Of a DNA stretch of 16,718 nucleotides, positions 9,732 through 15,266 are shown piece by piece. The notes under the pieces were generated by a model. That model was given only the letters and a program-made list of their open reading frames with translations, had not been told where the DNA came from and searched no databases. Both the position numbers and the translations under genes were made by a program. How positions within the stretch are numbered: the first letter of the stretch is position 1; every line of letters starts with the position of its first letter. Origin of the DNA: an uncultured Eggerthellaceae bacterium (GTDB taxonomy: Bacteria > Actinomycetota > Coriobacteriia > Coriobacteriales > Eggerthellaceae); the NCBI GenBank assembly GCA_946618265.1, contig CAMOLA010000044.1, forward strand, positions 1-16,718. The letters run 5' to 3'.

Positions 9732-10151
9732 TTACTTGCGGTAGAACGCGCGGTTGTTCGGCGTTTCGTCGACTTCGACTTCCGCGACGGGCAGCCCCTC
9801 TTCTTCGAGCTTCTCGAAGAAATACCGCGCAAGGTTTTCGGCGGTGGTGCGGAAGGGGAGGATGGTCAGGCTGAAGCCCTCCGATTCCAGCGCCTCGATG
9901 GTGGCTGCGGAAAGCGAGCCCTCTTCGACGAGGAACGTGTGGTCCAAGCTGTCTGCGAGCGCACGGACGGATTTCTTGAACACGCCGAAATCGAGCACCA
10001 TGTCCTTCATGGTGCCTTCGGTTTGAAGCTCGGGCACTTCGATCGTTACCTCGACGCGCCAGCGATGCCCGTGCAGGTTCTCGCATTTGCCGTAGTAATC
10101 GGTGAGGAAATGGGCCGAATCGAACGCCGACTCTGTTTTTAGACCGTACAT
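9732..10151 (-). CDS. queD: 6-carboxy-5,6,7,8-tetrahydropterin synthase (QueD/PTPS family)
   Basis: A 139-residue enzyme of the T-fold family. It converts dihydroneopterin triphosphate to carboxytetrahydropterin, the second step to preQ0/queuosine. Zinc ligands are His14 (SAHFL) and His27/His29 (LHGHRW). The catalytic Cys23 is in GKCENLHGH, which distinguishes QueD from many other PTPS proteins. Other hallmarks are DFG (54-56), LDHTFL with Asp70-His71, TAENLA with Glu105 and VDET with Glu129. The start at 10151 has AGGAG just upstream on the minus strand. A longer in-frame extension to 10319 has no ribosome site and would overlap the thrH promoter region. No other queuosine genes (queC, queE, queF, tgt) are in the window. 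Confidence 0.92.
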   Translation of the reverse strand: MYGLKTESAFDSAHFLTDYYGKCENLHGHRWRVEVTIEVPELQTEGTMKDMVLDFGVFKKSVRALADSLDHTFLVEEGSLSAATIEALESEGFSLTILPFRTTAENLARYFFEKLEEEGLPVAEVEVDETPNNRAFYRK

Positions 10152-10190
10152 GTCATCTCCTGTTAAACTTTGAACTGATAGCGCCAATCT

Positions 10191-10196
10191 ATTGTA
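10191..10196 (-). promoter_or_regulatory. Candidate -10 box for queD
   Basis: On the minus strand this reads TACAAT, giving a start about 30 bases before the queD ATG, which leaves room for its AGGAG ribosome site. No good -35 is visible. A preQ1 riboswitch was looked for in the short leader and not seen. Confidence 0.4.
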
Positions 10197-10311
10197 ATCT
10201 ATGGTTAGCCTTTGGGGACTTGGCCTGTTTGCGGGATGTGACCAAATCGGCGTATTGGACGACGTTGGTATACGGCGGTCGGCTATGCGGCTCGCCAGAA
10301 CGGAGAAGCAG

Positions 10312-10911
10312 ATGAACATCGTATGCTTGGATATGGAAGGCGTGCTCGTACCGGAAATCTGGATTGCGTTTTCGGAAGCGAGCGGAATTCCCGAGCTTTC
10401 GCGGACGACGCGCGACGAGCCGAATTACGACAAGCTGATGAAATACCGCCTCGACATCCTGGAGCAGCATGGACTGGGCCTTTCCCAGATTCAAGACGTT
10501 ATTTCCACGATCGATCCCCTGCCCGGCGCACGCGAGTTCCTCGACGAGCTGCGCGCAACCACGCAGACGATCATTTTGTCCGATACGTTCGAGCAGTTCG
10601 CCCAGCCGCTCATGAAGAAACTCGGCTGGCCCACCTTGTTCTGCAATTCGCTGGAAGTCGGCGAAGACGGCATGATCGTCGACTATCACATGCGCTGCGA
10701 GCAGTCCAAGCTGACGACGGTCAAGGCCCTGCAGTCTATCGGGTTCGACACCATCGCCGCTGGCGACAGCTTCAACGACCTGGGCATGATCCGCGCGTCG
10801 AAGGCAGGCTTCCTATTCCGGAGCACGGAGTCGATCATCGCCGACAACCCCGACCTGGGCGCGTTCGAGGAATTCGACGACCTCCTCGTCGCCATCAAGG
10901 CAGCCCTCTAA
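10312..10911 (+). CDS. thrH: ThrH-like HAD phosphatase (phosphoserine phosphatase / homoserine kinase family)
   Basis: A 199-residue HAD-superfamily enzyme. The N-terminus, MNIVCLDMEGVLVPEIWIAF, is very close to Pseudomonas ThrH, including the glutamate at position 9 where other HADs have aspartate. Further motifs: Ser90 in ILSDTFEQF (motif II), Lys133 (motif III) and GDSFND at 151-156 (motif IV). ThrH dephosphorylates phosphoserine and can transfer phosphate from phosphoserine to homoserine. ATG 10312 is chosen because GGAGAAG (10302-10308) precedes it and the homology begins there. The gene is divergent from queD with a 160-base spacer. Production of serine would feed the nearby serine acetyltransferase pathway, but the genes are not in one operon. 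Confidence 0.88.
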   Translation: MNIVCLDMEGVLVPEIWIAFSEASGIPELSRTTRDEPNYDKLMKYRLDILEQHGLGLSQIQDVISTIDPLPGAREFLDELRATTQTIILSDTFEQFAQPLMKKLGWPTLFCNSLEVGEDGMIVDYHMRCEQSKLTTVKALQSIGFDTIAAGDSFNDLGMIRASKAGFLFRSTESIIADNPDLGAFEEFDDLLVAIKAAL

Positions 10912-10953: not shown

Positions 10954-11055
10954 TGTTCAGCTGGCGTGCATCCTGCTACGATGGCGCACGTGTTGCTGGT
11001 TTGAAGCTTGTGCATGCGCGAGGGTAGACGCGTTACTTCAGCAAGTGACTCTCTG

Positions 11056-11088
11056 GTATACATTTGGGGACAGTCCCCAAATGAATAC
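11056..11088. repeat. 33-base palindrome, GGGGACAGTCCCC core (type B)
   Basis: Arms GTATACATTTGGGGAC and the matching complement around a central A, with one mismatch (A:A). Same core as 5445-5475 and nearly identical to 11141-11171. Confidence 0.85.
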
Positions 11089-11140: not shown

Positions 11141-11171
11141 TATACATTTGGGGACTGTCCCCAAATGTATA
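11141..11171. repeat. 31-base perfect palindrome, GGGGACTGTCCCC core (type B')
   Basis: TATACATTTGGGGAC, a central T and the exact complement: 15 pairs, no mismatch. It ends nine bases before the elp3 stop codon. Confidence 0.9.
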
Positions 11172-11180
11172 CCGAGCTCT

Positions 11181-12863
11181 TTAGCTCAGCAAATCTCTTT
11201 GCTGGTAGAGGCCGTTGTCGGCAAAGCTGAGCTTGCGGTAGTAGTCGCGCGTGCCAACGGCGCTTATGACGTTCATACGTTCGTAGCCGGAGTCGCGGGC
11301 GATGCGGCAGGCTTCTTCGACGAGGGCGCGCCCCAGACCGTGGTGCTGCGCTGACGAACCGGTCTCGTTGAGCTTGGTGGCCACGCCGTAGACGTGGACC
11401 TCGCGTATCATCGCCTCGCCCGGCCCAATGGGCAATGCATCGGCGTGCGACCTTATGTATTCCTGATTCGGCAGCGACAGCCTGAGGAATCCCGCGATCT
11501 TGTATGCGGGTGTCACCCATTGCAGGAACACCTCGTTGGTCGCGGAGGTTTTGTAATCGTATCGATCGAGTTCGAGCTCGTTTGGGTCTAGCTGGTCCGT
11601 CGAAATCTCCCTGAACCTGATTTCGCGAACCGCATCGCGGTCGTCTTGGAGACTTAGATCCACGATTTGCCTCAGGTTGGTCTTCTTGTTGCCGACGAGG
11701 ATGTCCTTGGCGGATATGTCGCGGATCATCCGCGATACGCGGCAGAACGGCGGCGTCGTCAGCATGTCGGACCGTAGGACGTCGACGAGCTCTTCCTCGG
11801 TATACGGGCGCCATCGTCCCTCGCGGTAACAATCGACGAGACGCGTGTTCGCGACGAGGGCGCAGGGGTAGAGCTTGACCTCGTCAGGACGAAACGCGAC
11901 ATCGTGCATGAACGTCGCGTAATCGCGCTTATCGGAATCGGGCGTCGCTCCCAGCAGGTTCACCATGAAATGCGTGTGCGTCTTGAAGCCGAAGATGCGA
12001 GCCAGCTCGAGGGAGCGCTTGATCGTCTCGCTCGATTCGCGTCTGCCGTTTTGCGCCAAGATATCGTCATCGACCGATTGCACGCCAAGCTGGATTTTCG
12101 TGCAGCCGAGCTTTCTCAAATGCGAAAGCGCGTCGGCCGTCACGGTATCGGGCCTCGTTTCGACGACGAGGCCGACGACGCGATGGTCTGCCCGCTCGTT
12201 CGCGCGCTGTGCGTCGTCGATGTCGGTTGGGCTCATGTGCTCGTCGGACGGAAGCGTGCCCGAATCGTATGCGTTGCGCAGCGCTGTTTCGCGCCGGTCG
12301 TCGGTATCGTTGAGGGCCCTGAACAGCTCCGTGACGAACCAGGTGCGGTATTCGGCCGGGTAGTCGAGCCATGTGCCGCCGAGCACGATGAGCTCGATCT
12401 TGTCGGTGGCATGACCCATCTGCGACAGCGTGCGAAGCCGGCTTGCGACCTGTAGGTACGGATGGAAGTAATGGCGTTCTGCGCGCTGGCATGCCGGTTC
12501 GTCGCTCAGGTAGCTCTTCGGCATGCGCGGGTCGTTGGGGCAGTACACGCAGCTGTTGGCGCAACCCCAGGGCTTTGTGATCACCGTTATGGTTGCCACC
12601 CCCGATGCCGTGCGCCGCGGTTTCATCTGCAGCGTTTTCAGAAATGCGGCATCAAGGTCATCGTCGACGTTCCAGGCCTCCCAAAGGGGGCCGCCGTCGG
12701 ATTTGGCGGCAAGATAATAGGGGAGGATCCGCTTCTTGGCGAACAGTCGGCGGCCATCATGCGCCTTTTTGCTGTGCTTGCGGATTATCTTGTCGAGTCC
12801 GGTTGGCCCGAGCTGCTGGTTTGAGCGCAGGGCGTCGAGTATGTCGGAAATGACCTCATCCAT
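11181..12863 (-). CDS. elp3: Elp3-family tRNA wobble-uridine modification enzyme (radical SAM + GNAT)
   Basis: A 560-residue protein. Elp3 uses a radical SAM centre and acetyl-CoA to add a carboxymethyl group to C5 of U34 in tRNA. The N-terminal part has the basic tRNA-binding segment. RTASGVATITVITKPWGC leads into the Fe-S cysteines C101, C105 and C108 (CX3CX2C, then YCPND). PKSYLSDEPACQRAERHYF and LGGTWLDYP are Elp3 hallmarks. The C-terminal GNAT domain has REVHVYG, QHHGLGRALVEEA and GTRDYYRKL. The start at 12863 is chosen because TACAAT on the minus strand lies exactly seven bases before it, a leaderless arrangement. A reading frame 25 codons longer crosses this promoter and the start of the divergent gene. 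The stop faces a cluster of palindromes. Confidence 0.9.
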   Translation of the reverse strand: MDEVISDILDALRSNQQLGPTGLDKIIRKHSKKAHDGRRLFAKKRILPYYLAAKSDGGPLWEAWNVDDDLDAAFLKTLQMKPRRTASGVATITVITKPWGCANSCVYCPNDPRMPKSYLSDEPACQRAERHYFHPYLQVASRLRTLSQMGHATDKIELIVLGGTWLDYPAEYRTWFVTELFRALNDTDDRRETALRNAYDSGTLPSDEHMSPTDIDDAQRANERADHRVVGLVVETRPDTVTADALSHLRKLGCTKIQLGVQSVDDDILAQNGRRESSETIKRSLELARIFGFKTHTHFMVNLLGATPDSDKRDYATFMHDVAFRPDEVKLYPCALVANTRLVDCYREGRWRPYTEEELVDVLRSDMLTTPPFCRVSRMIRDISAKDILVGNKKTNLRQIVDLSLQDDRDAVREIRFREISTDQLDPNELELDRYDYKTSATNEVFLQWVTPAYKIAGFLRLSLPNQEYIRSHADALPIGPGEAMIREVHVYGVATKLNETGSSAQHHGLGRALVEEACRIARDSGYERMNVISAVGTRDYYRKLSFADNGLYQQRDLLS

Positions 12864-12870
12864 GCCGTTC

Positions 12871-12890
12871 ATTGTAGCGTGCTTTACAAT
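12871..12890. promoter_or_regulatory. Back-to-back leaderless promoters for elp3 and the methyltransferase
   Basis: ATTGTA at 12871-12876 and TACAAT at 12885-12890 form a perfect inverted repeat with eight bases between. Read outward, each is a TACAAT -10 box exactly seven bases from an ATG (12863 on minus, 12898 on plus). Neither gene has a ribosome binding site, so both mRNAs probably begin at the start codon. The same inverted repeat could also be a dimeric operator. No -35 elements are evident. Confidence 0.6.
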
Positions 12891-12897
12891 AGGCGTC

Positions 12898-13674
12898 ATG
12901 GATGCGAACACGGCCAACACATTACGCGAGCTGAACAACCGGTTCTACGCTCTGCAAGCGCAATCGTTTTCCGAGACGAGAAACCATCCCTGGCCTGGAT
13001 GGCGGCGCGTGGTCTCGAAAGCCAGCGCCTCGTGTGGCCCGATCGGCACGGTGATGGACGTCGCTTGCGGAAACATGAGGTTCGAACGGTTCTGCTGCGA
13101 TGAAGGCCTTCTCGCCGAAGCGGAATTCCATGCGCTCGATTCGTGCCCTGATCTCGCATGCGACCTCGAAGGCGTCCATTTCAGGGAATTTGACGTTATC
13201 GAACCGCTCGTCGCAAGCGCAGGCGCGTCCTTGTCGTTTCCTTATCGAGATTGCGACCTTGCCGTCTGCTTCGGGTTCTTCCACCATGTCCCCGGTTTCG
13301 ATAATCGAGTGGCGCTCCTGCGTGCGATGCTGGACAGCGTGCGGGTTGGCGGTGTCGTTGCCTGCACGTTCTGGAGGTTCATGGACAACGAGAAGCTCGC
13401 TTCCGCGGCAATCGATACGACGCGCAATGCGTTGCGCAACATCGACGCCTGCCTCGAGCGCGGCGATTACCTCATAGGTTGGCAAGGCAAAGAAGGCGTC
13501 TATCGGTATTGTCATCATTTCGACGATGAGGAAATTGGGTCGCTGGCGAATGCAGTATCGAATCGGGCGCATGTGCTCGATCGGTTCGTGTCCGACGGGC
13601 GTACGAACGACCTGAACGAATACCTCGTGCTCGAGAGGCGCGAGGCAGTTCATATGCCGCTCGCGGGAGAATAG
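12898..13674 (+). CDS. SAM-dependent methyltransferase, Trm9/ALKBH8-like
   Basis: A 258-residue class I methyltransferase. The N-terminus reads NNRFYALQAQSFSETRNHPW followed by P, closely resembling the conserved Trm9/ALKBH8 opening (NRIAPHFSQTRYKPWP in yeast Trm9). Motif I is VMDVACGN (52-59), the acidic residue after beta 2 is Asp81, and GFFHHVPG (126-133) corresponds to the VVHHW region of Trm9. The C-terminal VYRYCHHF (201-208) fits the RYYHVF element and EYLVLER the last strand. Trm9 methylates cm5U34 to mcm5U34, the step after Elp3, which is encoded divergently 34 bases away. The start follows TACAAT by seven bases without a ribosome site. No Trm112-like partner is seen. A less specific methyltransferase role is possible. 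Confidence 0.68.
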   Translation: MDANTANTLRELNNRFYALQAQSFSETRNHPWPGWRRVVSKASASCGPIGTVMDVACGNMRFERFCCDEGLLAEAEFHALDSCPDLACDLEGVHFREFDVIEPLVASAGASLSFPYRDCDLAVCFGFFHHVPGFDNRVALLRAMLDSVRVGGVVACTFWRFMDNEKLASAAIDTTRNALRNIDACLERGDYLIGWQGKEGVYRYCHHFDDEEIGSLANAVSNRAHVLDRFVSDGRTNDLNEYLVLERREAVHMPLAGE

Positions 13675-14654: not shown

Positions 14655-15266
14655 TTGAAGAACAACCGCGTTTACATGCAAGTCGGAGTTGCTGACAAGC
14701 GAGAAGATTTCAAGCTCTGGTACGCCGATGGAGACGAGTTCCTTACGGTAACGAAAGAAGACTGGAACGACGAGAAGTGCCGTGCCGAAATCTACAATCG
14801 GTTCGGCGGACAGATGGCGCGCATCAAGCCCGACCCGAAGTGCATGACATACAACGTCGGCGTCGAACGTTACGAGTACGAGCTCCATACGTACCTGCTG
14901 TTCGAGCACTACTTCTTTAAGGGTATGCTGTGGGACATCCAGGGCAGCTTGGAAGACTCCCAGATGGATTTCCGGAACGAGGGCACGGGCAAGCTCGACG
15001 TGCGCATCAGCACCGTCAAGTTCAAGGACAAGGGCAAATGCTACGAGATCAAGGTCAAGGACCTTGCCAAGCTGCGCATCGCCGCCTGCTGCGTGATCGC
15101 CATGGCCCTCAAGGAAAGCTACAAGAGCGTGAGCGAGGGCGAGCCCGTCGAAGACGAGAAGTTCTGGAAGAAGTGGAAGAAGATCGTATTCGGCGACAAG
15201 GGCATTACCTATGAGGAGATCGTCGCCATGCGCGAAGCACGCGAGGCGGAAAGGCTTTCGCGATAA
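14655..15266 (+). CDS. Hypothetical protein, possible tubby/LURP-one-like fold
   Basis: A 203-residue protein with a TTG start at 14655, supported by AAGGAG five bases upstream; the next in-frame ATG would remove seven residues. It is soluble and rich in charged and aromatic residues, without a signal peptide. The pattern WDIQGSLEDSQMDFRNE, then VRISTVKFKDKGKCYEIKVK, then LRIAACCVIAMAL, resembles the end of LURP-one/tubby-C-terminal domains: a beta sheet whose last segment is a buried hydrophobic helix. This is a weak, memory-based resemblance. The C-terminal ~50 residues are a charged helical tail (FWKKWKKIVF and then EAREAERLSR). I do not recognise a function. It is flanked by its own promoter and terminator. 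Confidence 0.8.
   Translation: MKNNRVYMQVGVADKREDFKLWYADGDEFLTVTKEDWNDEKCRAEIYNRFGGQMARIKPDPKCMTYNVGVERYEYELHTYLLFEHYFFKGMLWDIQGSLEDSQMDFRNEGTGKLDVRISTVKFKDKGKCYEIKVKDLAKLRIAACCVIAMALKESYKSVSEGEPVEDEKFWKKWKKIVFGDKGITYEEIVAMREAREAERLSR

Follow-up and report, generated by a model that had tools for sequence, protein, structure and literature searches.

The pairing of Elp3 with the methyltransferase Trm9 in modifying the wobble uridine of tRNA (U34) is known for eukaryotes and predicted for archaea. In its available part, a 2008 source predicts both enzymes for Haloferax and reports their genes as clustered in Sulfolobus (PMC2584109), and 5-methoxycarbonylmethyluridine (mcm5U) is cited for H. 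volcanii in the available text of PMC7663514. For bacteria, the same text names Dehalococcoides as the sole clade with Elp3, with a product that lacks direct proof, and the accessible part of another source places Elp3 in numerous bacteria (PMC13315578). A 2017 review states, in the portion available, that no bacterial genes like those of the Trm112-dependent methyltransferases were detected (PMC5372719), and reviews, in the parts available, treat bacterial C5-substituted U34 (xm5U34) as MnmE/MnmG chemistry. Here, we analyzed a stretch of 16,718 nucleotides (the window) from an uncultured Eggerthellaceae bacterium of the class Coriobacteriia, in which a complete elp3 and a gene for a 258-residue methyltransferase lie head to head. 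A first-pass annotation had proposed that the two genes form a bacterial mcm5U pair. We consider it probable (roughly three chances in four) that Elp3 makes 5-carboxymethyluridine (cm5U34) and that the methyltransferase converts it to mcm5U34, or to the 2-thiolated form mcm5s2U34 together with MnmA, as a two-enzyme U34 pathway. Our literature searches, which covered titles and the beginnings of abstracts and were not exhaustive, found no description of a bacterial Elp3-Trm9 pathway, in line with what the annotation had supposed, and no paper on Elp3 in Coriobacteriia. The elements of the locus are as follows.

11181..12863, minus strand: elp3, radical S-adenosylmethionine (SAM)/acetyltransferase protein, predicted tRNA uridine-34 carboxymethylating enzyme (TIGR01211, three Pfam domains, PDB matches)
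12864..12897, no strand: intergenic stretch of 34 bp with TACAAT 7 bases ahead of the ATG on each strand, candidate divergent leaderless promoters
12898..13674, plus strand: gene for a Trm9-family class I methyltransferase of 258 amino acids, predicted tRNA (cm5U34) carboxyl-O-methyltransferase (profiles, catalytic columns, linkage)

The identity of Elp3 was borne out by a TIGR01211 score of 421.6 bits against a curated cut-off of 350 and by the Pfam domains Radical_SAM, Radical_SAM_C, and Acetyltransf_1. Nine of its 10 PDB matches, the best ones included, were Elp3 proteins; the matches include 5l7j, which we take to be the Elp3 of Dehalococcoides mccartyi. Conservation was counted over 89 rows (the window plus 88 loci, some of them from one genome). 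All 89 have the Glu of ETRPD as well as both the Lys and the Tyr of KLYP. The radical-SAM cysteines (CX3CX2C, three positions) are retained in 87, 87, and 89 rows, and the acetyl-CoA QHxGLG positions in 87; of the YYR tyrosines, one is conserved in 86 rows and the other in 87. The active-site Glu, Lys, and Tyr are named as Min E207, K302, and Y304 in the available part of PMC13315578, and we transferred them to the Coriobacteriia proteins by motif position. The CxCxxC site of six canonical Elp3 rows was absent from the Coriobacteriia rows; among solved Elp3 structures, zinc is described solely for that of Dehalococcoides (PMC7663514, available text). A very variable insertion precedes ETRPD: the segment spans 52 to 162 residues (median 100; the window protein has 54), whereas canonical rows have 31. 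The predicted product of the window Elp3 is cm5U34.

The first-pass annotation had recognized the methyltransferase by three motifs, SFSETRNHPWP, HH, and RYCHHF. All three are present in the 258-residue protein, and the open-frame translation gave both the motifs and the gene coordinates as annotated. Across the 43 homologues aligned, S23, F24, R28, W32, H129, H130, R203, Y204, C205, H206, and F208 never vary, so the motifs are not chance. We compared three profiles: A1, made of the 43 homologues; A2, of 18 fungal Trm9 proteins; and A3, of 30 bridging proteins plus 6 fungal Trm9 proteins, built without Coriobacteriia homologues. Against the PDB, A1 ranked the Yarrowia Trm9 structure 5cm2 first (35.7 bits, E 4.9e-8), ahead of the next chain at 19.3 bits (E 0.005), so that by profile Trm9, and not an unrelated family, is the best match. 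Alignment with hhalign gave 98.8% for A1 versus A2 and 99.9% over 238 columns for A1 versus A3. A3 itself scored 5cm2 at 211.8 bits (next chain, 81.7) and the window methyltransferase at 73.6 bits, and in 19 of 21 genomes that carry the pair (carriers), its best match was the elp3-linked family member, as identified by coordinates.

The Trm9-like bridging proteins came from a search with an Actinomycetota locus protein (best 120 of 462). Most entries are nameless, and the seven with named organisms are all bacterial (Actinomycetota/Actinobacteria, Nealsonbacteria, Parcubacteria, and "bacterium"). Some database relatives, P0030 and P0077 among them, already carry the automatic name TRM9. A corrected signature pattern, written with the alignment already seen, occurred in 117 of 120 Coriobacteriia proteins, 119 of 120 fungal proteins, and 68 of 120 bridging proteins, and in 81 of 2,512 frames (150 to 450 amino acids, 110 loci), every one of them an A1 match. 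In a tree without an outgroup, the Coriobacteriia rows clustered together (100/100), and the branch that bears them is long (2.92). The AlphaFold2 model (mean predicted local distance difference test score, 96.0; predicted template modeling score, 0.92) has a predicted class I SAM methyltransferase fold. Profiles and alignments place the protein, as the annotation had proposed, in the Trm9/ALKBH8 methyltransferase family, where it is a divergent member.

According to the available text of the 2017 review, tRNA binding and activity of yeast Trm9 require R29, H115, R241, Y243, and N271 (PMC5372719). We examined these positions in 66 aligned rows (17 Coriobacteriia, 40 bridging, and 9 fungal), with the yeast numbering carried over by motif position and without the Saccharomyces cerevisiae sequence, so either H129 or H130 of the window protein may correspond to H115. 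R28, H129, and R203, the equivalents of R29, H115, and R241, were identical in 66 of 66 rows, and N240, the equivalent of N271, in 65. The Y243 column was I in 12, F in 10, Y in 9, and C in 4 of the bridging rows, with other residues in the rest. This position is functional in yeast and varies across the family and is hence not a defining one.

Linkage was followed in 80 loci kept of 192 relatives in the genome collection. An elp3 gene stood near the methyltransferase gene in 75 of them, in 73 upstream on the opposite strand (head to head; match-to-match gap above 500 bases in 10) and in 2 downstream on the same strand (L047 and L052). The five loci without a linked elp3 are L012, L055, L069, L077, and L080, of which L012 and L069 start near a contig end. 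Because seven other window genes recur in just 3 to 17 of the 80 loci (queD in 5), the linkage of elp3 and the methyltransferase gene is more than mere synteny, and conserved linkage with any of the seven, queD included, was set aside. The same counts bear on the strongest alternative, namely, that the methyltransferase is related to Trm9 and acts after Elp3, with mcm5U a mere intermediate or with another cm5U derivative accumulating (an amide, hydroxylated, or 2'-O-methylated form). Yeast and archaea do take cm5U to 5-carbamoylmethyluridine (ncm5U) and further derivatives, according to the available parts of PMC5372719 and PMC7663514. Beside the pair, however, none of the seven genes forms a conserved third member, and we regard this alternative as unlikely.

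Co-occurrence also speaks for the pair. In a sample of 149 Coriobacteriia genomes, whose shared ancestry means that counts are not independent samples, 79 genomes had Elp3 at E 1e-30, 76 of them above the cut-off, and 80 had a methyltransferase profile match. Both were present in 78 genomes and neither in 68, so the methyltransferase accompanies Elp3 in 78 of the 79 Elp3 genomes; in one of the 78 (G049), the methyltransferase next to elp3 is a fragment that spans 54 profile positions. G032 and G092 had the profile match without Elp3, each at about 20 bits, and these are probably other methyltransferases. Elp3 occurred alone in G100 (L089), where a same-strand frame upstream of elp3 looks transporter-like. 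The neighborhood survey thus turned out as the first-pass annotation would have it, and independent lines support the functional pairing of the two genes. Carrier genera include the culturable Collinsella, Slackia, Atopobium, and Raoultibacter. Among 396 sampled Actinomycetota genomes searched at E 1e-60, 32 had Elp3: 26 belong to the class sample, and the remaining 6 score about 600 bits. In three of these six (L093, L094, and L095), a Trm9-like gene lies divergently near a canonical elp3, whose product scores as archaeal type. The sequence ends 5' of elp3 in L091 and L092, and another gene lies there in L096.

The remaining U34 enzymes of the 21 carriers fit such a pathway. Neither MnmG nor MnmE, the latter searched in these 21 genomes, reached the cut-off in any of them; weaker MnmG matches were partial stretches, and weaker MnmE matches covered mostly the GTPase part. 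The presence of MnmE/MnmG alongside the pair was therefore set aside. In the class sample, MnmG was found at E 1e-30 in 1 of 149 genomes (G076, without Elp3). MnmA was present in 20 of the 21 carriers. No stand-alone Trm112 was found in them; PF03966 matched in 7 (4 over the cut-off), inside frames of 393 to 784 amino acids. CmoM, too, esterifies the carboxylate of C5-linked U34 side chains, and the methyltransferase might act in its manner on a different tRNA carboxylate, that of uridine 5-oxyacetic acid (cmo5U34) or of the MnmE/MnmG product. This is very improbable. CmoB, which makes cmo5U, had no match in any of the 21 carriers at E 1e-10, with a positive Escherichia coli control, and a CmoM-like role was set aside on that ground; the absence of MnmE and MnmG over the cut-off and the linkage with elp3 also speak against it.

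In the two-enzyme pathway that we favor, Elp3 would add a carboxymethyl group, derived from acetyl-CoA by radical SAM chemistry, to C5 of U34, and the Trm9-family methyltransferase would move the methyl group of SAM onto the carboxylate of cm5U34 to give mcm5U34. Those of the presumed substrate tRNAs that MnmA also thiolates would carry mcm5s2U34, and the methyltransferase would work independently of Trm112. In the genomes carrying it, the pair would occupy the place of the MnmE/MnmG of other bacteria. With somewhat less assurance, we think that much of the class Coriobacteriia, and probably bacteria outside it, make the eukaryote- and archaea-type nucleoside mcm5(s2)U34 by a stand-alone Elp3, a Trm112-free Trm9, and MnmA, replacing MnmE/MnmG.

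Several observations weigh against this reading. Single-sequence searches with the methyltransferase were uninformative: Pfam returned only generic class I models, which scored close to or below the cut-off, NCBIfam returned nothing, and the PDB gave one chance match (E 0.18). With the fungal-only profile A2, the family member came first in 5 of the 11 carriers that gave any match, and the other 10 gave none; as this reciprocal result was mixed, the broader profile A3 was built, by which the family member still ranks only second in G003 and G007. Foldseek matched the model to class I methyltransferases with 5cm2 first by a narrow margin (E 3.1e-11 versus 3.6e-11), and 5cm2 was not among the 50 entries of VIA-align. 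The predicted fold is unspecific within class I methyltransferases, as NRMT, METTL6, and sugar methyltransferases have the same one. At the Y243 column, all 17 Coriobacteriia rows have Cys, and all 9 fungal rows have Tyr. Where elp3 is not linked, Elp3 is encoded elsewhere in the genomes of L055 (unlinked), L077, and L012, but the searches of the L080 and L069 genomes yielded none. Neither Elp3 nor MnmG was found at E 1e-30 in 69 of the 149 class genomes; the modification is therefore dispensable in the class. The reaction chemistry and the product are themselves predictions from sequence. The generic search results and the shared fold could suggest an unrelated class I methyltransferase, acting on a small molecule or a protein, that shares a divergent promoter with elp3 and has converged on Trm9-like motifs, but this is highly unlikely given the Trm9 columns outside the Rossmann core, the profile ranking, the bridging sequences, and the presence of the gene in 78 of 79 Elp3 genomes while other neighbors change.

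The tRNA genes of one carrier bear on what the mcm5U34 pathway would do. In the complete genome G001 (that of L072), read at full length, the boxes for Lys, Glu, Gln, Arg(AGR), Leu(UUR), and Gly each have C34 as well as U34 tRNAs, which also counts against our interpretation. The first-pass annotation had expected the modification to serve decoding of both A- and G-ending codons; with C34 tRNAs beside U34 in these six boxes, the G-ending part of that claim is weakened. Because C34 tRNAs are present in every split box checked, the modification in G001 more likely tunes accuracy and the way A-ending codons are read than makes the decoding of G-ending ones possible. G001 also carries a tRNA-SeC(UCA) gene; the mammalian selenocysteine tRNA is an ALKBH8 substrate.

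The longest elp3 frame in the open-frame list runs from a TTG start over positions 12938 to 11181 of the minus strand (585 amino acids). The ATG at 12863, giving 560 amino acids and ending at 11181, is the likelier start over TTG 12938, because TACAAT-N7 precedes it as it does the methyltransferase ATG at 12898; the other possible start besides that TTG is ATG 12872. The hexamers lie at 12885 to 12890 on the plus strand (methyltransferase side) and at 12876 to 12871 on the minus strand (elp3 side), and with elp3 beginning at 12863, the two starts are 34 bp apart. Among 70 related loci having a start codon at residue 1, TANNNT preceded the methyltransferase start by 6 bases in 15 loci and by 7 bases in 8 (together 23 of 70); no other single offset in the range of 4 to 59 bases exceeded 8 loci, a count reached at 14 bases. 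The pattern fits leaderless, divergent transcripts of elp3 and the methyltransferase gene.

Elsewhere in the window, which contains no tRNA gene and no Rfam match, we noted three further features. Two near-perfect palindromes of about 31 to 33 nucleotides (11055 to 11088 and 11141 to 11173, 84 bp apart) lie between thrH and elp3 and are candidates for a repetitive extragenic palindromic (REP)-like element or a terminator. Their core, TTTGGGGAC-N-GTCCCCAAA, was not found in the 140 loci examined. A QueD-like gene (9732 to 10319, minus strand; 88.9 bits with TIGR03367, whose cut-off is 89.25) is another wobble-modification gene near elp3. On the plus strand, a 203-amino-acid frame at 14655 to 15266 has relatives in 7 of the 80 related loci and no Pfam or NCBIfam match at E 0.001.

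If the pair functions as predicted, the Elp3-Trm9 pathway would belong to all three domains of life, with bacterial Trm9 forms linking Coriobacteriia to eukaryotes, and eukaryote-style wobble chemistry would operate in bacteria without the usual bacterial enzymes for that base. The culturable genera with the pair make the predicted product concrete and measurable. The pair also offers a single-subunit Elp3 and Trm9 for biochemistry, bears on the age of mcm5U34, and raises the question of how the 69 class genomes manage without Elp3 and MnmG.

Compared with known systems, the MnmE/MnmG pathway to 5-carboxymethylaminomethyluridine (cmnm5U34) modifies C5 of the same base and differs in using unrelated enzymes, found over the cut-off in none of the 21 carriers. 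Dehalococcoides mccartyi likewise has a bacterial stand-alone Elp3 (PMC7663514, available text, which mentions no partner methyltransferase), whereas its zinc-site cysteines are absent from the Coriobacteriia Elp3. With the eukaryotic Trm9-Trm112 enzymes (Yarrowia 5cm2, yeast Trm9, and the ALKBH8 domain), the Coriobacteriia proteins share the class I fold and aligned TR..PW, HH, D....W, RYxH, and terminal N positions, and eukaryotic Trm9 works downstream of Elp3 (PMC5372719, available part); unlike them, they form a separate long-branch clade with Cys at Y243, back-to-back genes, and no stand-alone Trm112 found in the carriers. The archaeal systems of Haloferax and Sulfolobus, compared here by their published descriptions, differ in their Tuc1-type thiolation, in place of which Coriobacteriia carriers have MnmA, and are alike in combining a stand-alone Elp3 with a Trm9-type gene, clustered with it in Sulfolobus (PMC2584109, available part).

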